A stretch of 49,239 nucleotides of DNA from Burkholderiales bacterium. Lineage in GTDB: Bacteria; Pseudomonadota; Gammaproteobacteria; Burkholderiales; JAEUOS01. Shown here in pieces: positions 7,824 through 33,926 of the stretch; positions within the stretch are counted from its first letter, which is position 1; the number at the start of each line of letters is the position of its first letter. Under the pieces are notes generated by a model. That model was not told the origin of the DNA. It saw nothing but the letters and a program-made list of their open reading frames with translations, and searched no databases. The translations under genes and the position numbers were made by a program. Location of the stretch: assembly GCA_947473125.1 (NCBI GenBank), contig CANJDH010000027.1, positions 1-49,239 on the forward strand. The letters are read 5' to 3'.

Positions 7824-7856
7824 CGTTTCTCCTCGCTGGTTTTACGTCGTGCCTAG

Positions 7857-10157: not shown

Positions 10158-10240
10158 GGCGTGGCGAGAGAAAGAGGAACGGGGTGCATGAACGATGCAG
10201 AACGAGTTGATTTTAGCCTGTCGCCGCCAAATCGTCTTGA

Positions 10241-10293: not shown

Positions 10294-10358
10294 GAAATGC
10301 CGTTGCTGCTGCACTGCCAACCCGCGTTCACGGACGGTCCGCAAGGATGATTCCGCGT

Positions 10359-10374
10359 TGGCATGGACGTTGCG
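10359..10374 (+). promoter_or_regulatory. Putative sigma-54 promoter before the kinase gene
   Basis: TGGCATGGACGTTGCG has GG at 10360-10361 and GC at 10372-10373, exactly 10 bp apart, matching the sigma-54 pattern TGGCAC-N5-TTGC closely. The predicted start near 10385 leaves only about 4 nt before the ATG at 10389, which is unusual and lowers confidence. Confidence 0.4.
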
Positions 10375-10388
10375 GATGCTACCTCACC

Positions 10389-14073: not shown

Positions 14074-14081
14074 GCCAGGTC

Positions 14082-15886: not shown

Positions 15887-15948
15887 CCGCTTTCCCTTTT
15901 CAGGATTCCGCTCCACAATGCGCCCTTTCGCCAATTGTGTTGCAGACC

Positions 15949-16809: not shown

Positions 16810-16813
16810 CATC

Positions 16814-17986: not shown

Positions 17987-18849
17987 TCGACATCCCCAAT
18001 ACCAGTGGTACCGGCATGCCGGCGCTGGCGGTGCCACCGCTCACTTGCGACGCCCACATGCACGTCTATGACCGGCGTTTTCCGGTCAAGGGAGGTTTTG
18101 TCGAAGGTGCCACTGTCAGGGAATACAACCGCCTGCAACAGCGCACCGGTACCAGTCGCACGGTGGTCGTCAACCCGCGCGCCAGCGGCGTCGACAATCG
18201 GGTGACCCTCGATGCCATCGCCCAATTGGGCAGGGAGCGCGCTCGCGGCATCGCCGTCGTCAATACGTCGGTCACCGACGCGGAGCTTTACGCGTTGCGC
18301 GCGGGCGGCATCCGCGGCATTCGCTTCACGCTCTACACGCTGGACAATGCGCCCACCTCATTCGACATGGTCGAGCCGCTGGCACGGCGCATCGCAGCAC
18401 TCGGGTGGCATGTTCAACTGCACTGGACCGCAGACCAGATCGCCGAACACGCCGACATGCTGTTGCGCCTGCCCTGCACCATCGTGCTCGACCACCTCGC
18501 CCGCTTACCGCAGCCCTTCGGCTTGCTGCATCCCGCCGTCGCCGTGATCCACAAGCTCCTCGACGGCGGGCGTACCTGGATCAAGCTGTCAGGCGCGTAC
18601 CTGGACTCGACCGCGGGTGCAGCAGGCGATTACGCGGAAGCCACCGTGGTGGCGCGCCACTGGGTGGCCGCGGTCCCCGAGCGCATGGTGTGGGGCAGCG
18701 ACTGGCCTCACCCCACTGAGAAGCAAAAGCCAGACGACGCGCAATTGCTCGACCTGATGTTGCAATGGGCAGACGACGACCTCACCCGCAAACGCATCCT
18801 CGTCGACAACCCGGCCGCGCTGTACGATTTTCCCATGCCCACCCCTTGA
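17983..18849 (+). CDS. Amidohydrolase, 2-pyrone-4,6-dicarboxylate hydrolase-like
   Basis: This 288-residue TIM-barrel metal-dependent hydrolase has the opening CDAHMHVYDRRFP, with the HxH metal motif, and the C-terminal VWGSDWPHPTE with a conserved Asp. LDHLARLPQPFG and WIKLSGAY are also typical of the PDC hydrolase (LigI) subfamily, which opens lactone rings in aromatic catabolism. The start is a GTG at 17983 overlapping the CoA-transferase stop. It is the third gene of the lyase, CoA-transferase and hydrolase operon. The true substrate is unproven. Confidence 0.88.
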   Translation: MIDIPNTSGTGMPALAVPPLTCDAHMHVYDRRFPVKGGFVEGATVREYNRLQQRTGTSRTVVVNPRASGVDNRVTLDAIAQLGRERARGIAVVNTSVTDAELYALRAGGIRGIRFTLYTLDNAPTSFDMVEPLARRIAALGWHVQLHWTADQIAEHADMLLRLPCTIVLDHLARLPQPFGLLHPAVAVIHKLLDGGRTWIKLSGAYLDSTAGAAGDYAEATVVARHWVAAVPERMVWGSDWPHPTEKQKPDDAQLLDLMLQWADDDLTRKRILVDNPAALYDFPMPTP

Positions 18850-18953: not shown

Positions 18954-19955
18954 TCAGGTCGCGGCGGTCTGCGCCGTCTCGTAGTTGACGATGAAGTCCG
19001 GTGGCAACGCCGGGCCCCAGACATAGAGCGAATCTTCCGGAGGATGGTCGGCAGCCGGCCAGTCGACCTCGGCGGGGATGAAGTCGATGTCGAACGAATA
19101 CTCGGCATGTCCTCCCCAGGGGTCGCGCACATAGTAAAAATAGTTCGAGCCCAAAACGTGCCGGCCGACGCCCCAGCCGCGCTCGTAGCCCTGCCCTTTC
19201 ATGAACTCGGCGCCGGCCCCCACCTCGTTGATGCTGCCGACATCCCAGCTTGAATGATGCAGGCCCAGGCCGTCGGAGTGGGCGAACGCCACGAGATGGT
19301 GGTCGCTGCCGTGGGCGCCGTGCATGAACGCAATGCCCGGCCCCGAATGGTCGCTCAGGCGAATCCCCAGCAAGTCGGAAAATTGCTTCATCGCGGCCGG
19401 CACATCGGACACGAAAAAAAGGATATGCGACAGGTGCCGTGGATGCACACGCGGCGTCTTGCTGCGCGACGGCGCGTTGCCCTGCGCCACCATGGGCGCG
19501 CTAACGTCATGCGGCGACTTCACCCCGGGCGACACCTTCGGCGCCACCAGCAATTGCACCACCAGCCCGTCCTGCGCAGTGAACCAGATGCCGCCTTTGC
19601 GCGCAGCTAGCGGGTGTGCCTCGCGCTGCAGGCCCGACGCCGCGATGCGTTGCACGAATGCCGCCTCGTCTTCGGGATAAATGCCGAACGTCACATATTC
19701 GAACTTGCGTTTCGTACCACCCTGGAACACTTGCGCCCAGACGTGGCCGCCCCCGCCGTTGCTCGTGCCGCCGCCGGCCATATCGCCGCGGACCTTGTCA
19801 AAGGTGCGCAAGGTGAGGCTCTCACCCTCCTCGCGCACATCGAGGCCGAAAGCATCGTAAAAGCGCTTTGCTTCGGCAAGATCGGGCACGCTGAACACGA
19901 AGCGGTCGACAGAATGCACGGCAATCGTATTGGCGCGGCGCGGATGGTTTGGCAT
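18954..19955 (-). CDS. Two-domain VOC protein, extradiol-dioxygenase-like
   Basis: This 333-residue protein has two vicinal-oxygen-chelate modules: about 10-140 (VDRFVFSVPDLAEAKRFYDAFGL) and about 170-310 (LSHILFFVSDVPAAMKQFSDLLG). The second domain has the pattern of a type I extradiol dioxygenase, with a His in HLSHILF, a second in LGLHHSSWDVG and a Glu near the end (GHAEYSFD) as likely iron ligands. Such enzymes cleave catechols or related aromatic diols. The gene lies alone between two copies of a short repeat, 90 bp downstream of livF. An aromatic or cyclic substrate for this region is suggested but not shown. Confidence 0.82.
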   Translation of the reverse strand: MPNHPRRANTIAVHSVDRFVFSVPDLAEAKRFYDAFGLDVREEGESLTLRTFDKVRGDMAGGGTSNGGGGHVWAQVFQGGTKRKFEYVTFGIYPEDEAAFVQRIAASGLQREAHPLAARKGGIWFTAQDGLVVQLLVAPKVSPGVKSPHDVSAPMVAQGNAPSRSKTPRVHPRHLSHILFFVSDVPAAMKQFSDLLGIRLSDHSGPGIAFMHGAHGSDHHLVAFAHSDGLGLHHSSWDVGSINEVGAGAEFMKGQGYERGWGVGRHVLGSNYFYYVRDPWGGHAEYSFDIDFIPAEVDWPAADHPPEDSLYVWGPALPPDFIVNYETAQTAAT

Positions 19956-20045: not shown

Positions 20046-20762
20046 TCAACCGGCCATCACCAATTCGGTCAGGCGCTCCGGATTGAGCAGCAGCTCGGCA
20101 CTGGCGCCGGCATACGCAATGCGCCCACGGTTGAGTACCAGTGCCTGATCGGTCACTTCGAGGGCAAGCTTGGCGGATTGCTCAACCAGGATCACGGTAA
20201 GGCCTTCATCGCGAATCAGGCGCCTGATACTGGCCAGCAGGCTCTGCACGATGATCGGCGCCAGCCCCTCGAGCGGTTCGTCGAGCAGCAATAGCGCCGG
20301 GTCGCCCATCAAGGCGCGCCCCATCGCCAACATTTGCTGCTCGCCGCCGGAAATCTGGTTGCCCATATGGCCGCGCCGTTCCGCCAGCCGCGGGAACAGT
20401 TCGTATACCCGTTCGACCGGCCAGCGTCCAGGTCGCGCCGCCACCAGCAGGTTTTCTTCAATCGTAAGCGACGGAAAAATGTCGCGCGTCTGCGGCACGT
20501 AGCCGATGCCAAGGCGCGCGCGCTCGTGCACCGGCAGGGCATGAATCGGTTTGCCCCGATACGCAATGCTTCCCGCATGGAACGTGCTGTGCCCCATGAT
20601 GCTGGCCAGCAGCGTGGTCTTGCCGACGCCGTTACGCCCGAGAATTGCCAACGCGCCGCACTCGGGCAAGCTCAAGCTGATGTCTTCGAGCACCACGGTG
20701 GGGCCGTAACCGGTGCGCAGCCCTTCGATGCGCAAGGCATCTGTCGACGGCGCGTCAGTCAT
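20046..20762 (-). CDS. livF: Branched-chain-type ABC transporter ATP-binding protein LivF
   Basis: This 238-residue ATPase is one of the two nucleotide-binding subunits of a Liv/HAAT importer. It has Walker A GRNGVGKT, the short Q loop YVPQTRDIFPSLTIEENL typical of LivF, signature SGGEQQM and Walker B LLLLDEPLEGLAP. The ATG at 20762 lies 8 bp inside the end of livG, so the two are coupled. It is the last gene of the transporter operon 20046-24727. Symbols follow family practice; the substrate need not be leucine. Confidence 0.93.
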   Translation of the reverse strand: MTDAPSTDALRIEGLRTGYGPTVVLEDISLSLPECGALAILGRNGVGKTTLLASIMGHSTFHAGSIAYRGKPIHALPVHERARLGIGYVPQTRDIFPSLTIEENLLVAARPGRWPVERVYELFPRLAERRGHMGNQISGGEQQMLAMGRALMGDPALLLLDEPLEGLAPIIVQSLLASIRRLIRDEGLTVILVEQSAKLALEVTDQALVLNRGRIAYAGASAELLLNPERLTELVMAG

Positions 20763-21504
20763 GCGATTCCCCCAGATACACCTCGCGCACGCGTGCATCG
20801 CGGGCAATCTCGTCCGGCGCGCCGTGGCACAGTACTTCTCCCTGCACCAGCACGGTAATGCGCTCGGCAAAACGAAACACCAGATCCATGTCGTGCTCGA
20901 TGATCAGGATCGCGATGTCCTTTGGTAGCTGGGCGAGCGCTTCGAGAATCCGCTCGGACTCCACCTTGGGAACCCCCGCTGCCGGCTCGTCAAGCAGCAG
21001 CACCTTGGGGCGCAAGCCCAGTGCAATCGCAATTTCCACCAGGCGCTGCTTGCCATAGGGCAAATCGAGCACGCGACGCGGCGCTTCATCGGCGATGCCG
21101 AGCGACGCCAGCAGTTCGAGCGCTTCGTCGCGCACCTCGGCGTAGCTGTTCGCCGGACGCCACCACTTGCCCGCCGTGCCGCGCCGCTCGGCCACGCCGA
21201 GCGCAACGTTGTCAAGCACACTCATGCTGCCAAACAGGGTATTGATCTGAAACGTGCGCCCCAGCCCGCGCTTGACGCGTTGCGCCTGCGCCAGTTGCGT
21301 CACGTCTTCCCCGCCCAGCGCAACCGACCCCGAGGAGGGCGCAAGACGGCCCGTCAACAGGTTGACAAACGTGGTCTTGCCCGCACCGTTCGGGCCGATC
21401 AGCGCATGGCGCGCGCCGGCTTCCAGCGTAAAATCAATGTCCGCTGCGACCGTGAGGGCGCCGAAGCTCTTGCACAGCTTGACGGTTTGCAACACGGCGC
21501 TCAT
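20755..21504 (-). CDS. livG: Branched-chain-type ABC transporter ATP-binding protein LivG
   Basis: This 249-residue ATPase has Walker A GPNGAGKT, a LivG-type Q-loop region (GLGRTFQINTLFGSMSVLDNV) and Walker B VLLLDEPAAGVP. The signature motif is degenerate: where LSYGQQR is usual, this protein has LPYGKQRLVEIA. Its start overlaps the livM stop by 4 bp. With LivF it powers uptake through LivH and LivM. Confidence 0.93.
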   Translation of the reverse strand: MSAVLQTVKLCKSFGALTVAADIDFTLEAGARHALIGPNGAGKTTFVNLLTGRLAPSSGSVALGGEDVTQLAQAQRVKRGLGRTFQINTLFGSMSVLDNVALGVAERRGTAGKWWRPANSYAEVRDEALELLASLGIADEAPRRVLDLPYGKQRLVEIAIALGLRPKVLLLDEPAAGVPKVESERILEALAQLPKDIAILIIEHDMDLVFRFAERITVLVQGEVLCHGAPDEIARDARVREVYLGESHD

Positions 21505-22490
21505 GCCGTGCCTCCGCCGCGCATGCTGCGAAACTTCGCCAGCAGGCCGTCACAGATGCCCAGCACGCCGCCGCGGGCAAACAGCACCACAATCACCAGC
21601 AGCAGGCCAATGCCGAAAAACCAGTATTCGGGAAATTGTTTGGCCAGGTAATCCTGCGCGACCCAAAACACCCTCGGGCCGACGAAGGCACCATACAAAC
21701 GCCCGACACCGCCGAGAATCAACATCACCATCAGTTCGCCAGAAGGCTCAAACCCCAGCACGTTGAGGCCGACCACCTGATTGGTCTGCGTCAACAACGC
21801 ACCTGCCACGCCGGCCATCACAGCCGAAATCGTGTACACCAGCACCAGGCGCGCGTAGACCGGCGCGCCGATCGCTTCCATGCGCAAGCGGTTTTCGCGA
21901 ATCCCGGTGAGGCTGGCGCCAAACGGCGAGTGGATCATGCGCCGCACCAGCCACCACCCGGCAAACAAAATGACGAGGCACCACCAATACGCGGTCTTGC
22001 CGTACAGGTCGAACTTGAACATGCCGAAGATTGGCGCCACCACCACACCGGCGAGCCCGTCGGCGCCGCCGGTCAAGTGGGTCGCCTTGTTGGCAATCTC
22101 CAGGCACACCGCCGCGACCGCAAGGGTCAGCATGAGCTGCGTGAGGCCGTGCGTGCGCATGATCACCGCACCCGTTACCAGACCCAGCACGCCGGCAGCA
22201 ACAGCGCTCGCCAGCAGCTGCAAGAACGGATCGGTCACGCCGAGCTTGACCGACAGCATGCCCGTCACATAAGCGCCGAGGCCGAAGAACGCCGCATGGC
22301 CCAGCGTGATGATGCCGGCGTACCCGAGGATCAAATCGAGGGACAGCGCGAACAGGATATAGGTGAGGACGCGCGCGCCCATCGACAAATAATCGGGCAG
22401 CGCGAAAAACACGACGATTGCCAACACCCACGGCAACCATTCAGTCCAGCGCAGGCGCGCATCGGCGTTGTAGCCTACGGGGTGCTTCAT
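21501..22490 (-). CDS. livM: Branched-chain-type ABC transporter permease LivM
   Basis: This 329-residue membrane permease has about nine to ten hydrophobic segments. It shows the family stretches LILGYAGIITLGHAAFFGLGAY and IRENRLRMEAIG, the latter being the cytoplasmic coupling loop. The ATG at 22490 begins MKHPVGYNADARLRW. Reading in frame further upstream would translate the 36-bp tandem repeats at 22516-22610 into a repetitive Arg/Gly peptide, which is not credible. It is separated from livH by those repeats. Confidence 0.93.
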   Translation of the reverse strand: MKHPVGYNADARLRWTEWLPWVLAIVVFFALPDYLSMGARVLTYILFALSLDLILGYAGIITLGHAAFFGLGAYVTGMLSVKLGVTDPFLQLLASAVAAGVLGLVTGAVIMRTHGLTQLMLTLAVAAVCLEIANKATHLTGGADGLAGVVVAPIFGMFKFDLYGKTAYWWCLVILFAGWWLVRRMIHSPFGASLTGIRENRLRMEAIGAPVYARLVLVYTISAVMAGVAGALLTQTNQVVGLNVLGFEPSGELMVMLILGGVGRLYGAFVGPRVFWVAQDYLAKQFPEYWFFGIGLLLVIVVLFARGGVLGICDGLLAKFRSMRGGGTA

Positions 22491-22515
22491 GCACGCCTCC
22501 CCGTATTGCCGTAAA

Positions 22516-22610
22516 CCGCGCTCATGCGCGCCTCCCAGTTTGGGCCGTGAGGCGCGCTCACGTGTGCCTCCCAGTTTGGGCCGTGAGCCGCGCTCACGCG
22601 CGCCTCCCAA
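22516..22610. repeat. 36-bp tandem repeat, about 2.6 copies, between livH and livM
   Basis: Units lie at 22516-22551, 22552-22587 and a partial one at 22588-22610. They differ by a few bases and share the block CCTCCCAGTTTGGGCCGTGA. The partial copy coincides with the last codons of livH, so the array probably arose by repeated duplication of the livH end. There are no spacers, which rules out CRISPR. Confidence 0.85.
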
Positions 22611-23469
22611 ACAACCCGGCCGGGCGCCACAACAACAACCCGATGGTGGCGGCATAGATGAAAAAGGCCCCTACCTCAGGCAACCAGTACTTGCACGCCG
22701 TGTCGGTAATGCCGATCAACAGCGCGGCAACAAACGGCCCGCGCAGGCTGCCCAGCCCCCCCACCGAGACCACAATCAAAAAATACACCAGCTGCTCAAA
22801 GGGATAGGTCGGCTGGATCGCCACGATGTCCGCGCCGAGCGCACCGCCCAGCCCGGCCAGGCCGCTGCCGATGGCAAATGTGATGGTGAACAGGCGCTTG
22901 GTGTTGATGCCGATCGACTGCGCCATGGCGCGGTTATCCACTGCCGCACGCACCATCGCGCCCCAGATGGTGCGTTCCACCCCGAACCACAATGCGGCAA
23001 TCATGGCGCCGCTGAACGCAATCAGGAATACCCGATAGGCCGGGAAATCGCGGCCCAGCAGCGAAAATTGGCCTTTGAGGTAGTCAGGCAGCAGTACCGG
23101 TTGCTGCAAGGTGCCGTAGATCAGCCGCGCCACCGCCACCGACATGAAAATCAGCCCGATGGTAAACAACACCTGTTCGAGTTCGGAAGCCCCATACAGG
23201 CGCGAGTAGAGCAGGCGCTCCAGCACCACGCTCGCGAGGGCCACCAACGCAAACGACAGGAACAATGCCAGCGGAAACGGAATCTGGAACCGCGCCAGCG
23301 AGGAGACCAGGATGTAGCCGCCGGCCATCGCAAACACGCCGTGCGCCAGATTGGTGAATCCCATCAGACCCATCGTCACCGACAGGCCTACCGAGATCAC
23401 GTACAAAATCATCCCGAACGCCACGCCATGGAAGGCGACGCTGACCAGGGATGAGAGAAAGGCTTCCAT
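22594..23469 (-). CDS. livH: Branched-chain-type ABC transporter permease LivH
   Basis: This 291-residue permease has about eight hydrophobic segments and typical family sequences GLMGFTNLAHGVFAMAGGYI and the loop AMAQSIGINTKRLF. The start MEAFLSSLVSVAFHGVAFG at 23469 lies 52 bp after the stop of the binding-protein gene. Its 3' end overlaps the tandem repeat array. It partners LivM in the membrane. Confidence 0.93.
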   Translation of the reverse strand: MEAFLSSLVSVAFHGVAFGMILYVISVGLSVTMGLMGFTNLAHGVFAMAGGYILVSSLARFQIPFPLALFLSFALVALASVVLERLLYSRLYGASELEQVLFTIGLIFMSVAVARLIYGTLQQPVLLPDYLKGQFSLLGRDFPAYRVFLIAFSGAMIAALWFGVERTIWGAMVRAAVDNRAMAQSIGINTKRLFTITFAIGSGLAGLGGALGADIVAIQPTYPFEQLVYFLIVVSVGGLGSLRGPFVAALLIGITDTACKYWLPEVGAFFIYAATIGLLLWRPAGLFGRRA

Positions 23470-23521
23470 GACAAAAAATCCCCCATGCCCGTCAACCGGT
23501 GCCCGGGGGATGTTGATCAGC

Positions 23522-24727
23522 TTATTTTTTGTCGGTCTTGTCCCACTCCTTGAGCGGATCCTTGATCGCCGCGGTGATCGTTTCCAGTTCCACATTGGCG
23601 AGCTTGCCGCCGACCTTGCGTACTTCGCGCAGGTATTCCGGATTGATGATGTCGCGGGTATCCGGATCGATCGAGAACGCACCGCGCGGGCTGGTCGTGC
23701 TCTTGTAGGTTTTCCAGAAATCAACGGTCTTTTGCGCGTCAATCGTGCCCTTCTGGGCGCGGATCGCCGCGTAGATCGCCTCCATCGCGTCCCATGCGCC
23801 CACCACCATGAAGCCAGGATTGAGGTTCTCACCGTATTCCTTTTTGTATGCAGCAACGAAGGCCTTGTTGGCAGGGCGGTCGGCCGCAGCCGAGTAGTGG
23901 TGTACCGTGGTCACGCCAAGGGCTGCGTCACCCATGCCGGCCAACTCTTCATCAGTCACGATGTCGCCCGTGCCGAGGTACTTGATGTTGACCTTGTCCA
24001 TATTGAGGTCGGTGTACGCCTTCATCATCGCAGCCGCCTGCTTGCCGGCCGGGTTGAAGGCGAAAATCACATCGGGTTTGGCATCCTTGATGCGCTGCAT
24101 GAAAGGCACGAAATCGGGGTTGGCAAACGGGATGCGCACCGCACCGAGGATCTCGCCGCCGCCTTCCTTGAAGCCGCGCGTGAAGCAGCCTTCGGCCTCA
24201 TGGCCCGGCGCAAAATCGCTGACCGCCGTGTAAGCTTTTTTGTACTTCTTGGCGGCCCACTGCCCGGCCGGGTAGGCGGACTGGCACAAGGTAAACGATG
24301 TGCGCGCCATGTATGGCGCTGCGTTCAGGATTTTGGCCCCGGCAGCGTTCATGCTCATCACCGGCACTTTGGCTTCGGTGGAAAGCGGCGCAATCGCGGC
24401 CAGGTTCGGCGTCCAGACAATGCCGGTAATCAGTTGCACCTTGTCGCGCACGATCAACTCTTGTGCGATGCGCTTGGCCACGTCCGGGTTGGCGCCGGTG
24501 TCATCCCGCTGCACAAGTTCAATTTTTACGCCGGGTGGCAACTTGTCGGCGTTGAGCTTCATGTAAAGCTTCACGCCTTTGTCGATCTGGTCGCCTTGGG
24601 CAGCACCGGGACCGCTGTAGGAGCTGATCAGGCCGATCTTGATGGTTTGCGCCGCCACCGGCAAGGCAGTCACGCCGCAGGCCAGTGCGGCCACGACGAG
24701 AGTGGTTCGAAGTGTGTACGAATTCAT
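23522..24727 (-). CDS. Branched-chain-type ABC transporter substrate-binding protein
   Basis: This 401-residue periplasmic receptor has a signal peptide (MNSYTLRTTLVVAALACGVTALPVAAQ) and the Peripla_BP_6 fold starting IKIGLISSYSGPGAAQGDQIDKG. This subfamily (LivK-like) binds amino acids, but in betaproteobacteria many members bind aromatic or fatty acids. The ATG at 24727 has AAGGAGA close upstream and its own promoter at 24777-24805. It begins the transporter operon livK-H-M-G-F. Its placement inside a CoA-catabolic block suggests it imports that pathway's acid substrate. Confidence 0.92.
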   Translation of the reverse strand: MNSYTLRTTLVVAALACGVTALPVAAQTIKIGLISSYSGPGAAQGDQIDKGVKLYMKLNADKLPPGVKIELVQRDDTGANPDVAKRIAQELIVRDKVQLITGIVWTPNLAAIAPLSTEAKVPVMSMNAAGAKILNAAPYMARTSFTLCQSAYPAGQWAAKKYKKAYTAVSDFAPGHEAEGCFTRGFKEGGGEILGAVRIPFANPDFVPFMQRIKDAKPDVIFAFNPAGKQAAAMMKAYTDLNMDKVNIKYLGTGDIVTDEELAGMGDAALGVTTVHHYSAAADRPANKAFVAAYKKEYGENLNPGFMVVGAWDAMEAIYAAIRAQKGTIDAQKTVDFWKTYKSTTSPRGAFSIDPDTRDIINPEYLREVRKVGGKLANVELETITAAIKDPLKEWDKTDKK

Positions 24728-24776
24728 GATGTCTCCTTGTCTTATATGGGGCGGCCCATGGACAAAAGCCTGGTTC

Positions 24777-24805
24777 AGTATAGCGCCTGGCGCAGGGGGA
24801 TTGAA
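24777..24805 (-). promoter_or_regulatory. Sigma-70 promoter of the Liv-type transporter operon
   Basis: On the minus strand TTCAAT (24805-24800) and TATACT (24782-24777) are 17 bp apart. The start near 24770 gives a leader of about 43 nt with AAGGAGA before the ATG at 24727. The transporter can thus be expressed separately from the upstream catabolic genes. The 270-bp gap 24728-24997 holds nothing else I can identify. Confidence 0.65.
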
Positions 24806-24997
24806 CACGATTTCGAGCACATCAGGTATGCCATAACGCTATATCGACGTCGGCGACATGTTGATTTGGGCGCGCTCGCGCCCCGGCGCGAAAAGCGGCT
24901 TGCGATGGAAGCAGAGCCGGTCTCGAGAGCAGGCGCATTGGGCTGCAACCCCGCACCCCGCGCACCCAAGGTCGCGAGAGGCAGGCCTTGCCACGCA

Positions 24998-25330
24998 TCA
25001 GTCCAGCTCGACCACCGGCAGGCGCAGCAGCGCATGCCCCATCGCCTTGCCGGTCTGGTCGAGGCGCACGGTGCAGGTGGCGCCACCACCCAGTGCCCCC
25101 CGCATCACCACCATCAGGGCTTCGATGTTGTCCATCGGGTAGCAGGTGACCTGGCCGGTGACCCACTCGCCATAGAGTGCCCTGACGCGCTCCGGCGTCA
25201 CGCTCGCCAGCAGCAAGGGATAAAGCTCGGGCGACTTGGCGATCAGCCCGGCGCTGCAGATGTTGCCCTTGTCGCCGGAGCGCACGTACGCAATGTCGGC
25301 AAGCAATCGTGGCTGTGTCGCGGTTGCCAT
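24998..25330 (-). CDS. AtuA C-terminal-type (ferredoxin-fold) protein
   Basis: This 110-residue protein matches the small C-terminal domain of AtuA-type proteins, starting LLADIAYVRSGDKGNICSAGLIAK and containing YPMDNIEALMVVMRGALGGGATC. In many genomes this domain is fused to the large DUF1446 domain; here it is a separate gene directly after it. The ATG at 25330 has GGAGG at good distance; a GTG at 25336 would overlap the upstream stop. Both parts probably form one complex. AtuA is needed for citronellol/geranylate (acyclic terpene) use in Pseudomonas, but its chemistry is unknown. Confidence 0.85.
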   Translation of the reverse strand: MATATQPRLLADIAYVRSGDKGNICSAGLIAKSPELYPLLLASVTPERVRALYGEWVTGQVTCYPMDNIEALMVVMRGALGGGATCTVRLDQTGKAMGHALLRLPVVELD

Positions 25331-25332
25331 GG

Positions 25333-26709
25333 TCACGCCTCCAGCACTTCAACGCGCTGTTTGACGAACGCGCGCGGAATCAGGGTGGGCCAAAGCGACA
25401 CCACCGGGCGCGGCTTGATCGGCGCGCCGAACGAGGTGCCGCCGGGACCCATGATCCACAGGTTTGCGCCGGCACGACGCACCTTGTCGGCCTCTTCCAT
25501 GGAGTGCGTCTTGACGGCGACACGCAGCCCGACCTCATTGAGGTGTGCGGCTTGCTCGGGTGTCGGCAGAGGCGCTGCCGGCCCGTGCAGGGTATTGATG
25601 CCGATGAAATCGAAGTGAACCTGCTCGGCCTTGAGCCCGAGGCGTTCAAAGCGCTCCAGCGTGGTCTGCCTTGCCTTCCGGGCACGCTCGAACGCATGCG
25701 GCCAGGGAAAAAATGCAATCGACTCGCCGATCCAGCCATCGCTGTAGCCGATCACCAGCTTGAGCATGTCGGGAGCGGGCTTGCCGCGTACGCCCGAGAC
25801 GCGCACGCGATCCGGCCCCGCATCCGACAGTCGCAGCGAGGTAAAGTCGGCCACGCCGTCGGGCATCAGGTAATTGTTGGGGTCGCCGATCTCGTAAACC
25901 ATGTGCTCCTTGATCGTGTGCTGGTCGATGCGCCCGCCCGAGCCGGCCACTTTGCCGATTTCGGCGCTGCCGTCTGCATGAAAGTCGAACCAGGGAAAGC
26001 CGACCTTGCCCATCATCGGCATCTGGTCGAAGCGCGACGACATGCCGCCGGTGCAGGCCGACGCGCATTCGACAATATGGCCCAACGCCACGGCCGCGGC
26101 AACCCGGTCAATGTGCGCAGCATCGTGCTTCCAGCCGAACGTGTGCATGATCGGCCCCACATAGACCGCGTTGTCCGATACCCGCCCGGCCACCACCACG
26201 TCCGCCCGTTCGTGGAGGCTCTCGATGATGCCGCTGCAATCGGTATAGACGTTGGCCGAGACCACGCGCTTGCGGATCTCCGCAAAATTTGTCGCGCCGG
26301 TGTCCATGTGGGTGAGCGGCACGCCGGCATCCAGCATGACGTCAATATCGCCGAGCAGGTCATCGCCTTCGATCAGCGCCACGCGCGTGCCATGCAGGCC
26401 CGCATCACGTGCTTCACGCACTACGGCCTCGGCTGCCGCACGCGGATTAACGCCGCCGCCGTTTGAAATGAGCCTGGTGCCGCGTTCGCGCGCCAGCGGC
26501 ATCATGGCTTTCATGTAAGCCACCGCATCGGGCACATAGCCGGCTGACGGATGTTTTTGCTTCTGGCGCTGCAACAGCGCCATGGTGAGTTCGGCCAGAA
26601 AATCGAAACACAGGTAATCGAGCTCGCCCTTGTCGAGCAGCTCCATTGCCGGGTCCATGCCGTCCCCCCAAAAGCCGCTGCCGGCGCCGAGGCGAATCGA
26701 TGATTTCAT
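25333..26709 (-). CDS. AtuA-like acyclic terpene utilisation family protein (DUF1446)
   Basis: This 458-residue protein is the large domain of the AtuA family, with a start like SIRLGAGSGFWGDGMDPAMEL, the loops ISNGGGVNP and GDDLLGDID, and AGRVSDNAVYVGP. It is cytoplasmic with no signal. Its role is unknown beyond a genetic link to terpenoid and methyl-branched acid degradation. The small C-terminal partner follows at once. The ATG at 26709 is preceded 11 bp earlier by the stop of the Bug receptor gene. It lies among CoA-transferase, dehydrogenase and hydratase genes, suggesting a branched or cyclic acid substrate. Confidence 0.9.
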   Translation of the reverse strand: MKSSIRLGAGSGFWGDGMDPAMELLDKGELDYLCFDFLAELTMALLQRQKQKHPSAGYVPDAVAYMKAMMPLARERGTRLISNGGGVNPRAAAEAVVREARDAGLHGTRVALIEGDDLLGDIDVMLDAGVPLTHMDTGATNFAEIRKRVVSANVYTDCSGIIESLHERADVVVAGRVSDNAVYVGPIMHTFGWKHDAAHIDRVAAAVALGHIVECASACTGGMSSRFDQMPMMGKVGFPWFDFHADGSAEIGKVAGSGGRIDQHTIKEHMVYEIGDPNNYLMPDGVADFTSLRLSDAGPDRVRVSGVRGKPAPDMLKLVIGYSDGWIGESIAFFPWPHAFERARKARQTTLERFERLGLKAEQVHFDFIGINTLHGPAAPLPTPEQAAHLNEVGLRVAVKTHSMEEADKVRRAGANLWIMGPGGTSFGAPIKPRPVVSLWPTLIPRAFVKQRVEVLEA

Positions 26710-26720
26710 GGGCCCTCGCC

Positions 26721-27716
26721 CTATTCCGGTTCGATGCCGGCGTTCTTGACCAGGCGTGCCCAGCGTTCGATCTCGCCGCGCTGGAATGCCGCCAGTTCGG
26801 CCGGCGTCCCGGGAATTGGCCGCCAGGCGTTCTGGCCAAAGTATTTCAGCGCTTCGTCGGACTTCATGATCGGCACCACCACGCTGTTGATTTTTGCGAC
26901 CACATCCTGCGGCGTTCCCGCAGGCGCAAACATGGCGAGCCATCCCGACACCTCATAACCGGCCACGCCCTGCTCGGCGATCGTCGGGATGTCTTCATAG
27001 CCCGTCATGCGTACTCTTGTAGACACGCCGAGCGCCTTGAGCTTACCGGCGCGCACGTGCGGCATGATCGCGGGCGCATCGCCGAACACCATGTCGATCT
27101 GGCCGCCGAGCACATCGGTGATGGCGCCGGGCAAGGTTTTGTAGGGTACGTGCACGATGTCGATGCCGGCCAGGTCGCGCATCACCTCCCCGCCGGCGCG
27201 CGACGACGAATTGCCACTGCCGAAGGTCATCTTGCCGGGGTTCTTCTTGGCCAACGCAATCAGTTCCTGCACATTTTTGACCGGCATGTCAGGCCGCACC
27301 CCCAGTACCACCCCGCCAATGATGATTCCCGTGACCGGCGCGAAATCCTTCACCGGGTCATACGGCACTTTTTTGAACAGCGCCAGGTTGGCGGCGTGCG
27401 TGGTGTTGGTGCCGACGACAACGGTGTAGCCGTCGGCCGGCTGCTGCAGGACAAATTGCAGGGCGATGAAGCCGTTGGCGCCCGGCTTGTTGTCAACCAC
27501 CACGGTCTGTTTGGTCGCCTCGGTGAAGCGCTGCGCGATGAAACGCGCGGCAAGGTCAGTTGTGGTGCCCGCGCCAAACGGCACGACAAAGCGCACCGGC
27601 TTGTTGGGGTAGGCCGTTGGCGCCTGCCCCCTTGCGATCGATGGCAGGGCCGCGACGGACATTGCGGCAAGGCCGCCGGTGACCAGGGTACGGCGACGTG
27701 ATGCGGTCGGATTCAT
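26721..27716 (-). CDS. Bug-family (tripartite tricarboxylate) solute receptor
   Basis: This 331-residue periplasmic binding protein of the TctC/Bug family starts MNPTASRRRTLVTGGLAAMSV, a twin-arginine-like signal. The mature part YPNKPVRFVVPFGAGTTTDLAARF is typical. Bug proteins bind carboxylates and hand them to TctAB or work in sensing. No TctA or TctB gene lies in this window. It is embedded between a MaoC gene and the AtuA gene, so it probably senses or binds the same acid. It is one of three Bug proteins here. Confidence 0.93.
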   Translation of the reverse strand: MNPTASRRRTLVTGGLAAMSVAALPSIARGQAPTAYPNKPVRFVVPFGAGTTTDLAARFIAQRFTEATKQTVVVDNKPGANGFIALQFVLQQPADGYTVVVGTNTTHAANLALFKKVPYDPVKDFAPVTGIIIGGVVLGVRPDMPVKNVQELIALAKKNPGKMTFGSGNSSSRAGGEVMRDLAGIDIVHVPYKTLPGAITDVLGGQIDMVFGDAPAIMPHVRAGKLKALGVSTRVRMTGYEDIPTIAEQGVAGYEVSGWLAMFAPAGTPQDVVAKINSVVVPIMKSDEALKYFGQNAWRPIPGTPAELAAFQRGEIERWARLVKNAGIEPE

Positions 27717-27754
27717 GGTGACTCCTTGAACAGTATGTGGGTAAAAAAGCAGTG

Positions 27755-28246
27755 TCAGCCGGTAGCGTGGGCATCGCGCCCCTTGACCATGCGCATCGGG
27801 TTGTAGGTTGCCACGATTTCGCCGCGCTGGTTGACCACACGGTTCATGGTACGCAACAGGCCGCGCCCCGGCTTGCTGGTGGCGCGGGCCTCGACCACTT
27901 CGCACTCCACGTGAATCGTGTCTCCGGCCACCGTGGGTTTGAGGATGCGCAGGTCGCATTCGAGAAACGCCATGCCGGTGCGCTGCATGGTCGACTGCAT
28001 CAGCAGGCCTTCGGAGATGCAGAACACCAGCGACCCCGGCACCGGGCGCGCACCGATGCGCGATTCCGACTTGATGTACTCAAGGTTGGTGAACATTTCC
28101 TCGACCATGCCGGTAATGCCGACAAACAGGGTGATATCGGCCTCTGTGATGGTGCGGCCGAGCGTCTGGAAACGCTGGCCAAGGGTGACATCATCCCAGT
28201 GCAGGCCCATGCCCATGACCGGCATATCGTTGTCAACGTTACTCAT
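27755..28246 (-). CDS. MaoC-family (hot-dog fold) dehydratase
   Basis: This 163-residue single hot-dog domain protein is a probable (R)-specific enoyl-CoA hydratase. Family blocks are LGQRFQTLGRTITEADITLFVGITG, with the catalytic-type Asp, and a later RPVPGSLVF stretch; the canonical His of the HxxD-type motif is not obvious. It overlaps the CoA-transferase stop by 4 bp. It resembles the second MaoC gene at 30649 and the two may form a heterodimer. Confidence 0.88.
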   Translation of the reverse strand: MSNVDNDMPVMGMGLHWDDVTLGQRFQTLGRTITEADITLFVGITGMVEEMFTNLEYIKSESRIGARPVPGSLVFCISEGLLMQSTMQRTGMAFLECDLRILKPTVAGDTIHVECEVVEARATSKPGRGLLRTMNRVVNQRGEIVATYNPMRMVKGRDAHATG

Positions 28247-29478
28247 GCGATTCTCCCGATCACCTTCTGTTGTTCGAGCGACGCCAGCGCAGCCTCATCG
28301 AGGCCGAGGATGCGTTGCAGCACCCCGGTGGTGTGTTCGCCCAGTTGCGGTGGGGCGAAGCGGTATTCGACCGGCGATTCCGACAGGCGCATTGGGCTGG
28401 CAATCGACGGCACTTGCCCGCTCTTCGAATGGGCCAGCGACAAGCGCATGCCGCGCGCTTGAACCTGCGGGTCGGCAAATACGCGGTCAATCGAATTGAT
28501 CGGTCCGCAGGGCACGTCCACCGCCTCCATCGCGGCGACCCATTCATCAAGGGAGCGGGTACGCGTGATGCTTTCGAGCAAAGGAATCAGCGCTGCGTAG
28601 TTGGCCACCCGATCGGAAATGGTGCGAAAGCGCGCGTCGGTACCGATCTCCGGCCGGCCCATGGCAATGCTCATGCGCACGAACTGCGCGTCGTTGCCTA
28701 CCGCCAGGATCATGAAGCCGTCAGAGGTAGGGAACGACTGGTAGGGCGCAATGTTCGGATGGCCGTTGCCGGTACGCACCGGGGCTTTGCCGGTGGTGAG
28801 GTAGTTCATCCCCTGGTTGGCGAGGACCGCCACCTGGGTGTCAAGCAAGGCAATGTCGATGTGCTGGCCGCCACCACCTGCATCGCGATGCCGCAGTGCC
28901 GCAAGGATTGCCACGGTGGCGTACATGCCCGACAGTATGTCTGCGAGTGCCACACCGGCTCGCTGCGGTCCGCCGCCCGGCCGGTCATCGCGCTCCCCGG
29001 TCACGCTCATGAGACCGCCCATGCCCTGGATCAGGTAGTCGTATCCGGCACGCTGCCGATACGGCCCGGTCTGGCCAAAGCCGGTAATCGAGCAATAAAT
29101 CAGGTCGGGCAATTCGGCATGCAGGGTGGCGTAATCGAGTCCGTACCTGGCAAGCCCGCCTACCTTATAGTTTTCAATCAGCACATCGCACTTGGCTGCC
29201 AGGGCGCACACCAGTTTGCGGCCCTCGGGCGTGGCAATGTCGAGCGCCACCGATTCCTTGTTACGGTTGGCTGCAAAGAAATAGGCCGCATCTGCATCGG
29301 CGCCGGTCTGGGCATCGCGCATGAACGGTGGGCCCATCTGGCGCGTGTCGTCGCCGCTGCCGGGTTTTTCGATCTTGATCACCTCGGCGCCGAGGTCAGC
29401 GAGATTTTGTGTCGCCCATGGCCCGGCGAGAATGCGCGTCAGGTCGAGGATGCGGATGCCGTGCAGTGGTCCGGCCAT
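28243..29478 (-). CDS. Class III CoA transferase (CaiB/BaiF family)
   Basis: This 411-residue transferase shows GIRILDLTRILAGPWATQNLADLGAEVIKIEKPGSGDDTR in its first 45 residues, then ANRNKESVALDI and the probable catalytic Asp in ALADILSGMYA. It should activate the pathway's free acid with CoA taken from a donor. It lies 12 bp after the acyl-CoA dehydrogenase stop and is coupled to the MaoC gene. Confidence 0.94.
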   Translation of the reverse strand: MAGPLHGIRILDLTRILAGPWATQNLADLGAEVIKIEKPGSGDDTRQMGPPFMRDAQTGADADAAYFFAANRNKESVALDIATPEGRKLVCALAAKCDVLIENYKVGGLARYGLDYATLHAELPDLIYCSITGFGQTGPYRQRAGYDYLIQGMGGLMSVTGERDDRPGGGPQRAGVALADILSGMYATVAILAALRHRDAGGGGQHIDIALLDTQVAVLANQGMNYLTTGKAPVRTGNGHPNIAPYQSFPTSDGFMILAVGNDAQFVRMSIAMGRPEIGTDARFRTISDRVANYAALIPLLESITRTRSLDEWVAAMEAVDVPCGPINSIDRVFADPQVQARGMRLSLAHSKSGQVPSIASPMRLSESPVEYRFAPPQLGEHTTGVLQRILGLDEAALASLEQQKVIGRIA

Positions 29479-29490
29479 GGTTTCAGGCCT

Positions 29491-30630
29491 CTAGATGCGC
29501 AGCGATTTGGCGATGATGGTGCGCTGGATCTGCGAGGTGCCGCCACCAATGGTGCCCTGCATGCCTTCGCGAAAATAGCGCTCCATGTCGGCCTCAGGCA
29601 GCATGCCGTGGCCGCCGAGGATCTGCATGCCCTGGCGCGTCACGGTCTGCAACGTCTCCGAAGCGATCAACTTGGCCATGCTCACTTCACGCGCGCAAGG
29701 CAAGCCTTTGGAGGCCATGTCGGCCGCGCGATACACCATCAGGCGCGCCGCATCAACGGCGGTCTGCATGTCGGCCAGCATGTGCCGGATCACCTGGAAT
29801 TCGTAGATTGCCTTGTCGAACTGGATGCGGTCGTGCGCGTATTGCAACGCATCGCTGACCGCCTGCTGCGCGTTGCCTACATAGGCCGCCGACACGGCGA
29901 CGCGTTCAAGCTCGAGGTGGTCGGTAATGATGGCCCAGCCGGCGCCGGGATCGCCCAGGATGCAATCGCCGGGAATGCGCGCGCCGTCGGCGAAGATTTC
30001 GGTGGTGCCGGTGGCACGCCGCGCCATGGTCGGCAGGCGGCGGATATCAAGGCCCGGCGTGTCGTTGGGCACCAGCAATACCGAGAGGCCGAAGTGCTTC
30101 TTGGCATCAAGATCGGTGCGTACCAACATCGCGATGGTGACATTTTTTGCCGCCGCGCCGGAGCACCAGAGCTTCTGCCCGTTGATCACCCAGTCGTCGC
30201 CGTTACGCTCGGCGCGGGTGCGCGTATTGGCGGCATCCGAGCCGGCGGAAGGTTCGGAAATCGAAATCGAGAAGCGCCGCTCGCCGCGCATGAAGGTGCC
30301 GAGGTACTTGTCGCGCTGCGCCTGGGTACCGAACTTGACCACGTTCATCGCGGTGAAGGTCGAGACCATGAACGCGGTGGCGAAGTCGAAGCCATAACGC
30401 GCCAGGCCTTCGCACATCAGGGCGTAATCGAAAATGGTGCCGCCGTCGCCGCCCTGCTCTTCGGGGATCAGGAGGCGCAACCAGCCTAGTTTGGCGACCT
30501 TTTCGTAGGCTTCGTAGGGGTAGCGGCGCTCGGTGTCGCACTCGCGCACGTAGGCACAGGTAATTTCGTCTTTCATCACCCGGGCGACAGTGTCGCGCCA
30601 CATCAGTTGCTCTTCGGTCAGGAAATCCAT
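29491..30630 (-). CDS. Acyl-CoA dehydrogenase
   Basis: This 379-residue flavoprotein would introduce a double bond into a CoA-bound acid. It shows the FAD/substrate motif FSISISEPSAGSDAANT, WVINGQKLWCSGA, and a C-terminal block ending GGGTSQIQR. In the usual pattern (YEGTSEIQ) a Glu at that place is the catalytic base; here it is Gly362. The base may lie elsewhere, as in isovaleryl-CoA dehydrogenase, or the activity may differ. It lies between a MaoC gene and the CoA transferase. Confidence 0.92.
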   Translation of the reverse strand: MDFLTEEQLMWRDTVARVMKDEITCAYVRECDTERRYPYEAYEKVAKLGWLRLLIPEEQGGDGGTIFDYALMCEGLARYGFDFATAFMVSTFTAMNVVKFGTQAQRDKYLGTFMRGERRFSISISEPSAGSDAANTRTRAERNGDDWVINGQKLWCSGAAAKNVTIAMLVRTDLDAKKHFGLSVLLVPNDTPGLDIRRLPTMARRATGTTEIFADGARIPGDCILGDPGAGWAIITDHLELERVAVSAAYVGNAQQAVSDALQYAHDRIQFDKAIYEFQVIRHMLADMQTAVDAARLMVYRAADMASKGLPCAREVSMAKLIASETLQTVTRQGMQILGGHGMLPEADMERYFREGMQGTIGGGTSQIQRTIIAKSLRI

Positions 30631-30648
30631 GTCGTGTGGTCCGGTAGG

Positions 30649-31098
30649 TCAGGCGGCATCAAGCAGCGGCGTGCGTCGGATCAGCAGGCTGAACTCGCAG
30701 CTCAGCACCGTCTCGTCACGCTGGTTGTGGATGGTCAGCAGGTTGGTGACGACGCCGTGTGCATCGCCCCGGTCCTTGAGGCGAATGATCTCGGCTTCGG
30801 CATGGATCGTGTCGCCGATGAAGCTGGGCTTCAAAAAGCGCAGCTTGTCGACGCCATAGAAAGCCTCGACCAGCGCCGAATCAAAACCGAGCAACGCGTT
30901 GCCAATCACGAATACCAGGCCGCCCTGCACGATGCGCTGGCCGAACATCGCCTTTTTGGCAAATTCGGCATTGGCGTGGATTTCCAGCCAGTTGCCGGTA
31001 AGGCCGCAAAAGTTGACCACGTCGGTTTCGGTAAGGGTGCGGCCGCGCGAACGCAGGCGTTGCCCGATTGTCAGCTCGCCATACGGTTTGTTGACCAT
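30649..31098 (-). CDS. MaoC-family (hot-dog fold) dehydratase, second copy
   Basis: This 149-residue hot-dog protein resembles the MaoC gene at 27755: KPYGELTIGQRLRSRGRTLTETDVVNFCGLTGNW. It keeps a hydratase-like region with the sequence NWLEIHANAEFAKKAMFGQRIVQGGLVF, where Glu/His-Ala-Asn replaces the usual D-x-x-P-x-H. The ATG at 31098 is preferred to a TTG at 31116 that would overlap the previous stop. It is probably a CoA-ester hydratase of the block. Confidence 0.87.
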   Translation of the reverse strand: MVNKPYGELTIGQRLRSRGRTLTETDVVNFCGLTGNWLEIHANAEFAKKAMFGQRIVQGGLVFVIGNALLGFDSALVEAFYGVDKLRFLKPSFIGDTIHAEAEIIRLKDRGDAHGVVTNLLTIHNQRDETVLSCEFSLLIRRTPLLDAA

Positions 31099-31112
31099 CC
31101 TGTTTCGTCTCC

Positions 31113-31928
31113 TCAACGGCCCTGCCAGCGCGGCGGGCGTTTTTCGATGAAGGCGCGCGGGCCTTCCTGGGCATCTTCGCTTGAATATACCGCATGGTGC
31201 AGGCGCTTCGATTCTTCACCGCCCGCCTGCGCACCCAGGGCCACGCTGGCAAGCAGGCCAGCCTTGCCGACATTGACCGACAGCGGCGCATTGCGCGCAA
31301 TACGCTGCGCTAACTCGCGCGCCCTGGCCCGCACCGCATCCGGCGTCGGCTCGACATAATTGACGAAGCCGAGCTGGTGAAAGCGTTCGACCGGCATCAT
31401 GTCGGCAGTAGTGATCAACTCCATCAGGATCGCCAGAGGCAGCATCGCCACCATCGGCGCGGCCCACGGCGAGCCGCGACCGACCCGGCCCTCACTGATG
31501 GCGCCCGAGGTGCCGGCGAGGCCGACGCGCATGTCGGCGTTGGCGGCTAGCACCATGCCGGCCGCCAGGAAATGCCCGGTCATCGCGGCGATGATCGGCA
31601 CGCGCACGCGACGCATGCGTTCGTAGAAAGGGTCATCGAGCAGATCGAGAATGTCCTTGCCGGTCTCGGCCTTGGCACGCGCCGCCTCGGCGAGGTCCAT
31701 ACCTGCGCAAAAGCTGCCGCAATCGGCCGACGTCAGGATGACCGCGCGCACATCCGGCGTGTCGTCAATCTGATCCCACAAAGCGAACAGGCGGGCGTTG
31801 GCCGCCATTGACATCGCATTGCGGCGCTCGGGGCGATTCAGGGTGATGGTGGCGATGCCGGGTTCAAGTGCCAGCTTTACCTGGCTTTCCGGCGATGGCG
31901 AATCCAGGGCAACTAGAGTAGCAGGCAC
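31113..31928 (-). CDS. Enoyl-CoA hydratase/isomerase family protein (crotonase)
   Basis: This roughly 271-residue crotonase has ATITLNRPERRNAMS, SFCAGMDLAEA (oxyanion-hole region), and PIIAAMTGHFLAAGMVLAANADMRVG. The start is unclear: there is no ATG in a good place, and a GTG at 31928 is the most reasonable since it begins shortly before the conserved core. It is the first gene of the minus-strand catabolic operon and is divergent from the IlvD/Edd gene at 32089, with the shared control region between about 31929 and 32088. Confidence 0.82.
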   Translation of the reverse strand: MPATLVALDSPSPESQVKLALEPGIATITLNRPERRNAMSMAANARLFALWDQIDDTPDVRAVILTSADCGSFCAGMDLAEAARAKAETGKDILDLLDDPFYERMRRVRVPIIAAMTGHFLAAGMVLAANADMRVGLAGTSGAISEGRVGRGSPWAAPMVAMLPLAILMELITTADMMPVERFHQLGFVNYVEPTPDAVRARARELAQRIARNAPLSVNVGKAGLLASVALGAQAGGEESKRLHHAVYSSEDAQEGPRAFIEKRPPRWQGR

Positions 31929-33849: not shown

Positions 33850-33878
33850 TCGTTTGGTCAGCGACCTGCAATTCCCCT

Positions 33879-33899
33879 GAAACCATTGGTGGGAGCGGG
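33879..33899 (+). repeat. REP-like repeat copy after the IlvD/Edd gene
   Basis: GAAACCATTGGTGGGAGCGG is close to the arm at 18848 (GAAAACCCATGGTGGGAGCC). It starts 30 bp after the stop codon of the dehydratase, similar in position to the other copies. Confidence 0.5.
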
Positions 33900-33926
33900 T
33901 CTCCGCCGCTTATCGAGGTGACACTC

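Follow-up and report, generated by a model that had tools for sequence, protein, structure and literature searches.

A conserved eight-gene cassette with a proposed two-gene AtuA-type lyase in a Burkholderiales genome and its possible role in the breakdown of branched dicarboxylic acids

We examined a stretch of 49,239 bp (the whole of contig CANJDH010000027.1 of assembly GCA_947473125.1, contig C27 in our numbering; here referred to as the window) from a Burkholderiales bacterium, whose genome comprises 4.88 Mb in 209 contigs and is 97.15% complete. An original prediction had read positions 20046–31928 as one block for CoA-dependent acid catabolism with built-in uptake. All the genes named there were present and adjacent on the minus strand, with partly overlapping starts (gaps of −4 or −8 bp) (Table 1). 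The eight genes from the crotonase-type hydratase gene (ech1) to the small ferredoxin-like partner of AtuA (atuA-fd) are separated by 14, 18, 12, −4, 38, 11 and −4 bp, and are referred to here as the cassette. Genes of a branched-chain-amino-acid-type (Liv) transporter follow after a gap of 270 bp, with 52, 103, −4 and −8 bp between them, and the VOC gene lies 90 bp beyond livF. Both AtuA domains scored above their Pfam gathering scores. As had been predicted, the block lacks a ligase, thiolase or beta-ketoacyl step: no ligase, thiolase or 3-hydroxyacyl-CoA dehydrogenase gene was found among the block genes as scanned. The scan for promoters and terminators gave no more than shuffled sequences did (1 versus a mean of 3.1, and 10 versus a mean of 11.4).

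Table 1. Genes of the cassette and its two neighbouring systems in the window
Gene	Product	Coordinates	Strand	Domain match or remark
ech1	Crotonase-type enoyl-CoA hydratase	31113..31928	-	PF00378, 131.8 bits
maoC1	Hot-dog MaoC protein	30649..31098	-	PF01575, 69.5 bits
acad1	Acyl-CoA dehydrogenase	29491..30630	-	
caiB	Class III CoA-transferase	28243..29478	-	PF02515, 434.8 bits
maoC2	MaoC-like protein	27755..28246	-	Weak: FAS1_DH_region, 28.2 bits; MaoC, 25.4 bits, below cut-off
bug	TctC/Bug-type periplasmic solute receptor	26721..27716	-	PF03401, 214.5 bits
atuA	Proposed C-C lyase large subunit (DUF1446/AtuA)	25333..26709	-	PF07287, 425.4 bits (gathering score 22.8)
atuA-fd	Small ferredoxin-like partner	24998..25336	-	PF23544, 84.7 bits (gathering score 27); 4 bp overlap with atuA
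livK-livH-livM-livG-livF	Branched-chain-amino-acid-type ATP-binding cassette (ABC) transporter	20046..24727	-	Neighbour of the cassette
VOC	Two-domain extradiol-dioxygenase-like protein	18954..19955	-	PF00903, 54.5 bits; neighbour only

For comparison, 70 loci in named records were fetched with an alignment of three AtuA sequences of the window's clade (its own and those of genomes G266 and G355), and the 50 loci with AtuA at 60% identity or more are referred to as clade loci. Orthologs were counted by the identity of the best tblastn piece, which had to cover at least 40% of the query, with a general threshold of 45%; thresholds of 60% for carboxyltransferase and 55% for biotin carboxylase were applied against the proteins of Pusillimonas sp. 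TS35. Locus L150, whose AtuA is truncated at a contig end, yielded no tblastn piece and was left out of the counts. The loci are not independent, as some are near-copies of each other: AtuA is identical between L097 and L126 and between L098 and L100, and nearly so between L106 and L108 and between L118 and L149.

The conserved unit was smaller than the block first noted, and consisted of ech-maoC1-acad-caiB-maoC2-bug-atuA-atuA-fd (24998–31928). All eight genes were identified in the window's order in Bordetella sp. BOR01 (L088), with 70–82% identity (70% for bug) and an IclR-type regulator gene divergently upstream, and seven of them, with bug absent, on the conjugative Paraburkholderia fungorum plasmid NZ_CP099646.1 (L163), with 60–83% identity. 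The acyl-CoA dehydrogenase (ACAD) encoded by acad1 shared 81–83% identity with its counterparts from BOR01, from Pusillimonas TS35 and from the P. fungorum plasmid. The order and set kept in BOR01 and on this plasmid are more than chance, and the genes were thus not unlinked in relatives, which would have spoken against the original prediction. Within the 50 clade loci, orthologs were detected for atuA-fd in 48, ech1 in 37, caiB in 22, maoC2 in 18, acad1 and maoC1 in 16 each and bug in 7, and for none of the flanking ilvD, citE-like, CaiB_up and amidohydrolase genes (0/50). As a control, we used 16 neighbourhoods of other AtuA paralogs (L068–L083, some of them cut by contig ends), at which acad1, maoC1, caiB and maoC2 had no homolog at 45% or more, and ech1 had one in a single neighbourhood. 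When all window frames were compared with 75 AtuA-neighbourhood loci, those with homologs of at least 45% were this block and shadow frames in or beside it, in addition to 5279–6130 (4 loci, of which two are the same DNA), 6529–6996 (2 loci) and 45621–45920, a frame of 100 codons (one locus of the 75).

AtuA matches at E ≤ 1e-60 were present in 98 of the 399 sampled genomes of the window's order, its own included, while identity above 42% was seen, besides the own genome, in two only (G266, 69%; G355, 66%). A contig scan with a single AtuA query returned 10 stretches and no relative. Among 68 plasmid records that matched AtuA, five did so at 60–80% identity, and cassettes of the AtuA clade lie on plasmids of Sulfitobacter dubius (L165) and P. 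fungorum (L163) that were typed as conjugative (MOB-suite via PLSDB).

The Liv and VOC genes did not behave as parts of this unit. No ortholog of any of the five Liv genes or of the VOC gene was found in the 50 clade loci, and the genome G004, from the same family, carries a Liv set with 82–92% identity around which, in the 39 kb that were read, there was no cassette gene or VOC gene at ortholog level (the nearest CaiB showed 34% identity). With the 270-bp gap before livK, we rejected Liv as a conserved part of the cassette and VOC as part of the pathway; accordingly, the proposed built-in uptake by Liv was not supported, nor was the VOC gene as a hint at a ring. On the other hand, all these genes are adjacent on one strand, and Liv genes near AtuA recur: non-orthologous sets were found in L109 (24–44%), in L146 (27–43%) and 9 kb from AtuA on the P. 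fungorum plasmid (30–38%), and Liv-type permease and ATPase genes, 25–41% identical to those of the window, in 6 of the 16 control neighbourhoods (L072, L076, L078, L079, L080 and L082). On balance, it is improbable that the whole of 20046–31928, with Liv and perhaps VOC, makes up a single pathway for an acid that is taken up from outside and may be cyclic, and we keep to the eight-gene cassette, beside which Liv may take part in uptake as a lineage-specific system. The VOC protein has His, His and Glu residues at positions that, judged by eye, suit an extradiol dioxygenase, and its homologs at E ≤ 1e-60 were found in 6 of 300 genomes of the order, its own included.

AtuA had been described as split. 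It is encoded by two separate genes, but we identified no lesion, and in 76 of 78 loci AtuA and its small partner had separate reading frames, so that the two-gene form is the usual one and a broken or frameshifted AtuA was rejected. Fused AtuA was found in 5 of the 59 AtuA loci of other kinds, and the fused ones form a separate clade. In an 88-row tree, the window AtuA, that of NaphS2 and 33 others formed one 35-row group with a support of 100 in the Shimodaira-Hasegawa-like approximate likelihood ratio test (SH-aLRT), which left out the common paralog clades of the order and the fused clade (5 rows, SH-aLRT 100, including the paralog G000:C14 of the window's genome). The AtuA of Pseudomonas aeruginosa, itself absent from the tree, is presumably of the fused type, which has a length of about 600 amino acids. 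For Thauera, the accessible part of one paper gives an AtuA of 615 amino acids (PMC4847356). Both this tree and the 80-row tree described below are quick searches with SH-aLRT only, in which several long branches carry a flag and many of the inner forks among Burkholderiales lack resolution; the 88-row tree also holds duplicates (own-genome paralogs L004/L029 and L006/L036, and the clade member L112/L040), and L039 and L040 are labelled in it as the order's paralogs although they are clade members.

The structural model of AtuA, made from 47 aligned sequences, had a mean predicted local distance difference test score of 93.8 and a predicted template modelling (TM) score of 0.90. Its sole match in PDB at E ≤ 0.001 was 9evf_A (E 2.7e-27, TM score 0.77), from the entry entitled 'Citramalate lyase - ADP - pyruvate complex', and VIA-align placed 422 residues on 9evf at 3.2 Å with a Z of 31.7, the next chain reaching 8.9. 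The AtuA sequence profile, searched against PDB at E ≤ 10, also retrieved only 9erq and 9evf (E 1.5e-7), whose molecule is named 'Acyclic terpene utilization AtuA family protein | Citramalate lyase, subunit A (cmlA)', with shared GR..D, EC and YE..DP stretches. The modelled AtuA thus has the whole-chain fold of citramalate lyase subunit A (CmlA); citramalate lyase splits citramalate into acetate and pyruvate. No paper on CmlA was found in our literature search, and the small subunit had no credible match in PDB (best E 0.25 and 0.32). In the available portion of a study on enterobacteria, a DUF1446 gene of open function is located downstream of methylaspartate ammonia-lyase, and the fate of citramalate there is described as unclear (PMC4682846), which is in keeping with this match. 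It is likely that AtuA and its small partner carry out a C-C cleaving step.

As the title of the 9evf entry implies a free C5 hydroxy-diacid as substrate, AtuA could act like citramalate lyase on a free hydroxy-acid, with the CoA genes serving a different acid; in several loci, AtuA and the other modules do stand apart. However, the eight genes are packed (−4 to 38 bp) and keep their order in BOR01, and ThnQS, of the same clade as the window pair, is reported in part of a review to act on a CoA ester (PMC12016498). We see only a slight chance for a free-acid lyase, and consider AtuA with the other genes of the cassette.

The link to ThnQS comes from the anaerobic naphthalene (thn) operon. NaphS2 was among the 70 loci (L142), with an adjacent AtuA and small ferredoxin-like protein showing 44% and 49% identity to the window pair, and the AtuA proteins belong to the same clade. 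By position, atuA-fd corresponds to ThnS. The same review, as far as it was accessible, lists the thn operon and reports, from unpublished data, that the N47 counterpart (ThnQS) cleaves a tertiary-hydroxy diacid-CoA (PMC12016498); by its name, this substrate is a 3-hydroxyglutaryl-CoA with C3 and C4 tied in a ring. In the Atu pathway, the substrate assigned to AtuA in the accessible text is 3-hydroxy-3-isohexenylglutaryl-CoA, from which acetate leaves (PMC4847356). Both substrates carry a tertiary hydroxyl that beta-oxidation cannot oxidise, which suggests AtuA as a way round. The second-ring cleavage module of the naphthalene degraders N47 and NaphS2 (ThnP, ThnO, ThnL, ThnQS and ThnV), encoded in this operon, further resembles the cassette in its CoA-transferase, ACADs, crotonases, two MaoC proteins and proposed order of reactions. 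Nevertheless, ThnP is described in the available part of its source as a class I, Cat1-like intramolecular transferase (PMC11659651), whereas the window CaiB is of class III, and at 8694–9986 of the NaphS2 locus there is a butyryl-CoA:acetate CoA-transferase-like gene (264.8 bits, below cut-off). The NaphS2 ACAD (ORF 6641–7789, taken as ThnO by its position in the operon) is 31% identical to that of the window and retains the usual Glu, and the block here is without thiolase or aryl-CoA reductase genes. We therefore did not file the cassette under Thn, as it shares the lyase pair with that operon and not the Cat1-like class I transferase.

The CaiB protein was closest, among the named families, to succinate-glutarate / succinate-hydroxymethylglutarate CoA-transferase (SUGCT, NF052585), with 513.5 bits compared to 271.2 for the next family, and that of BOR01 was similar (514.7 bits). 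The curated cut-off of NF052585 is 750 bits, and the SUGCT equivalog assignment was thus rejected. The closest solved relative of CaiB was 4ed9, an unnamed CaiB/BaiF protein (414.7 bits), followed by 9br6 (338.9 bits), a succinate--hydroxymethylglutarate CoA-transferase and the nearest named solved chain.

In the ACAD, the usual C-terminal base Glu is replaced by Gly (GGGT), and the helix G Glu motif LE(L/I/M)ER (LELER in the window) is present, each of them in 19 of 19 aligned rows. A Glu in helix G is what isovaleryl-CoA dehydrogenase uses, and, judged by these residues, the pattern is isovaleryl-CoA-dehydrogenase-like. The same switch (GAGT/LDYER) was seen in a BOR01 ACAD located 3 kb from a methylcrotonyl-CoA-carboxylase-like carboxyltransferase. 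ECH1 had both expected Glu residues in the alignment (...ISEGRVG... and ...LMEL...), which we take to be the catalytic ones. The MaoC proteins were different. An Asp-His dyad defines the MaoC (R)-hydratases; MaoC1 has Asn at the Asp site with the His kept (TGNW....H), MaoC2 has neither residue (GMVEEMF), in 19/19 rows each, and the solved MaoC1 relatives 1q6w and 4ffu have Asp at that position. Perhaps MaoC2 is a partner of MaoC1. As the accessible part of the review reports ThnHI to be a heteromeric MaoC hydratase (PMC12016498), the pair itself is not odd, whereas its residues are.

We propose, with a probability of roughly 55%, that the cassette breaks down a C3-branched or C3-ring dicarboxylic acid, activated by a CoA-transferase and opened by an AtuA-type lyase. 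The estimate holds for the lyase-centred mechanism; for the substrate, our confidence is lower. Gene content, conserved order, fold, phylogeny and catalytic-residue patterns are directly established, and from them we infer the reactions of the window proteins and the substrate. The Bug receptor, possibly together with the neighbouring Liv system, would capture the acid, and CaiB would transfer CoA to it from succinyl-CoA. The ACAD would then form a beta,beta-disubstituted enoyl-CoA, which ECH1, perhaps with the MaoC pair, would hydrate to a tertiary alcohol, one that beta-oxidation could not oxidise. AtuA and its small partner would cut between C3 and C4, giving a 3-oxoacyl-CoA and a free carboxylate (acetate, if the substrate is acyclic), and a thiolase encoded elsewhere would finish; 9 thiolase C-domain matches were detected in the window's genome. 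The original proposal that an unusual acid is activated, dehydrogenated and hydrated was supported. The earlier view that the pathway is incomplete or ends unusually needed correction: the route probably does not stop at hydration, with AtuA as the likely cleaving enzyme and CaiB in place of a ligase, and this largely accounts for the steps that seemed to be absent.

The substrate would be a 3-substituted glutarate-type acid or an alicyclic equivalent. A branched dicarboxylic acid is suggested by the SUGCT-like CaiB, the isovaleryl-type base of the ACAD, the thn parallel and a PrpD-like gene in four relatives (L096, L106, L108 and L110), for which MmgE/PrpD is our own label (31 bits, E 1e-7, to a PrpD family for the Pusillimonas copy). 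Near the relative on the Sulfitobacter plasmid, acetate--CoA ligase and 3-oxoadipyl-CoA thiolase occur as gene annotations, by name only; such enzymes would agree with the release of free acetate and the formation of a 3-oxoacyl-CoA. The citramalyl-CoA lyase Ccl of the itaconate/methylsuccinate cluster (Ict, Ich, Ccl, Mcd, Msi) is of the CitE type. This cluster offers an analogue: in the accessible portion of its description, a transferase, dehydrogenase, hydratase and lyase serve itaconate and methylsuccinate, and the methylsuccinate isomerase is an MmgE/PrpD protein (PMC12290011). The cassette is similar in its transferase, ACAD, hydratase and lyase for a branched diacid, and four relatives share the PrpD-like gene; it differs in having an AtuA-type lyase instead of a citramalyl-CoA lyase, and in the lack of a PrpD-like gene in the window block. 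With no Ccl in the block, filing under the itaconate cluster was rejected; the CitE-like gene at 15946–16809, which lies some 8 kb past atuA-fd and on the opposite strand, reached 179.4 of 375 bits for RipC/Ccl.

Several observations weigh against our proposal. The modules are not fixed, as the clade-locus counts of acad1 and maoC1 (16/50), caiB (22/50) and bug (7/50) indicate. Homologs of the ACAD at E ≤ 1e-120 in 369 genomes of the class amounted to four genes in two genomes (61–62% identity), none of them with an AtuA gene in its neighbourhood (0/4), and both genomes carry AtuA elsewhere, at 35–37%. CmlA is only 18% identical to the window AtuA, and CaiB stays under the SUGCT cut-off. MaoC1 and MaoC2, without the expected catalytic residues, have no clear role, and, given the class of ThnP and the Glu of the NaphS2 ACAD, the lyase pair alone is close to thn. 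Finally, an acyl-CoA carboxyltransferase gene is found near atuA in 36 of the 50 clade loci, so that the substrate usual for this clade may gain its second carboxyl group within the cell.

This last point bears on an Atu/Liu-type route, in which a beta-methyl-branched monocarboxylic acid, after activation and dehydrogenation, would receive a carboxyl group in trans from a methylcrotonyl-type carboxylase, and would then be hydrated by ECH1 and cleaved by AtuA. The 36 loci with a carboxyltransferase speak for it, as does the isovaleryl-type base pattern of the ACAD; biotin carboxylase was found in 20 of the 50 (40 of 71 loci with a looser clustering). Of the 14 clade loci without carboxyltransferase, five (L085, L111, L118, L127 and L147) are truncated by contig ends near atuA. 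No carboxylase was identified in the window block, in the 21-kb BOR01 locus or in 29 kb of the P. fungorum plasmid. We then checked seven genomes for carboxyltransferases, namely that of the window and six from which other loci come. A close ortholog was present in two: in G400 (74%) it belongs to locus L135, and in the Pigmentiphaga genome G402 (76%) its position matches that of a second AtuA locus, L090. The five others (G000, G399, G401, G403 and G404, namely the window's genome and those of BOR01, L086, L087 and L085) had none above 62%, whereas the atuA-linked ones range from 68 to 100%. The best one in the window's genome, G000:C7, was 59% identical to the AtuA-linked query; it has no specific name in NCBIfam, and its neighbours suggest a liu-like setting, from which a methylcrotonyl-CoA-carboxylase-like enzyme could act in trans. 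Taken with the SUGCT-like CaiB, which suits diacids, these identities make the Atu/Liu-type route unlikely, and the uptake of a ready dicarboxylic acid is preferred.

The cassette shares with the Atu pathway of Pseudomonas and Thauera a lyase of the AtuA family, assigned there to a 3-hydroxy-3-alkylglutaryl-CoA, and the logic of ACAD and hydratase. It differs in the lack of a close carboxyltransferase ortholog in the genome, in a split AtuA that lies outside the fused clade and in a CoA-transferase that replaces the ligase. Filing under the Atu pathway was rejected, as no geranyl-CoA-type carboxylase was found, an absence that is not absolute in an assembly of 209 contigs and 97.15% completeness. 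An isoprenoid substrate deduced from the AtuA name alone was likewise rejected: AtuA had been taken as a pointer to isoprenoid acids, but the window protein groups with NaphS2, and the genome has no carboxyltransferase of the AtuA-linked type above 59%.

In the 80-row tree, six carboxylase-free loci (those of the window, BOR01, L086, L087, the P. fungorum plasmid and L107) fell within a 31-row group (support 99) and outside its 22-row subclade, of which 21 rows are carboxylase-bearing. The carboxylase-bearing L089, L092 and L093 also branched outside this subclade, with L107, and several forks had supports of 81–94. The carboxylase-free form recurs and, going by this tree, could be old in the group. 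Its recurrence suggests either that the substrate arrives with its second carboxyl or that a carboxylase acts in trans.

The eight-gene cassette is real and conserved, and represents a variant of the transferase, dehydrogenase, hydratase and C-C lyase type of pathway. Our literature search, which covered mostly titles and openings of abstracts and left subscription literature largely outside, returned no description of the cassette or the route in aerobic bacteria. A broader suggestion is that aerobic proteobacteria have a carboxylase-free, transferase-activated pathway, sometimes plasmid-borne, in which a nucleotide-linked AtuA lyase opens beta-branched or alicyclic diacids and frees a carboxylate; we put this forward tentatively, with the odds somewhat against it. 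If true, it would be an aerobic counterpart of the step that opens the ring when naphthalene is degraded anaerobically, and naphthenic and terpenoid diacids would be candidates for this route. It would also bring the Atu, Thn and citramalate lyases together in a single retro-aldol lyase superfamily, and the MaoC pair, lacking its usual Asp, would have taken on a new use. In the listed plasmid records, AtuA-family genes are mostly annotated as 'acyclic terpene utilization', whatever their function; as two-subunit lyases for tertiary-hydroxy acids, they would have an annotation with testable meaning, and the cassette a short list of substrates.

The window holds further genes of note. Adjoining the cassette at 32089–35093 (plus strand) are genes for a divergent IlvD/EDD-type dehydratase (NF004784, 886 bits) and a third class III CoA-transferase. 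On the other side, 15946–18849 (plus strand) encodes, in a row, the CitE-like lyase, the window's second class III CoA-transferase and an amidohydrolase akin to 4-sulfomuconolactone hydrolase, which form a separate acid-catabolism group; an NMT1-type ABC transporter (11798–14948, two genes scanned) precedes this row. The genes at 6529–11156 (minus strand) encode molybdenum-hydroxylase-type subunits, in which [2Fe-2S] and FAD domains were scanned, and the [2Fe-2S] subunit (6529–6996) has a relative of up to 46% identity near atuA in L094 and L099. An alpha/beta-hydrolase gene (5279–6130, minus strand), 19 kb from atuA in the window, has homologs of up to 65% identity near the AtuA-carboxylase clusters of L112 (the same as L067), L115 and L116.

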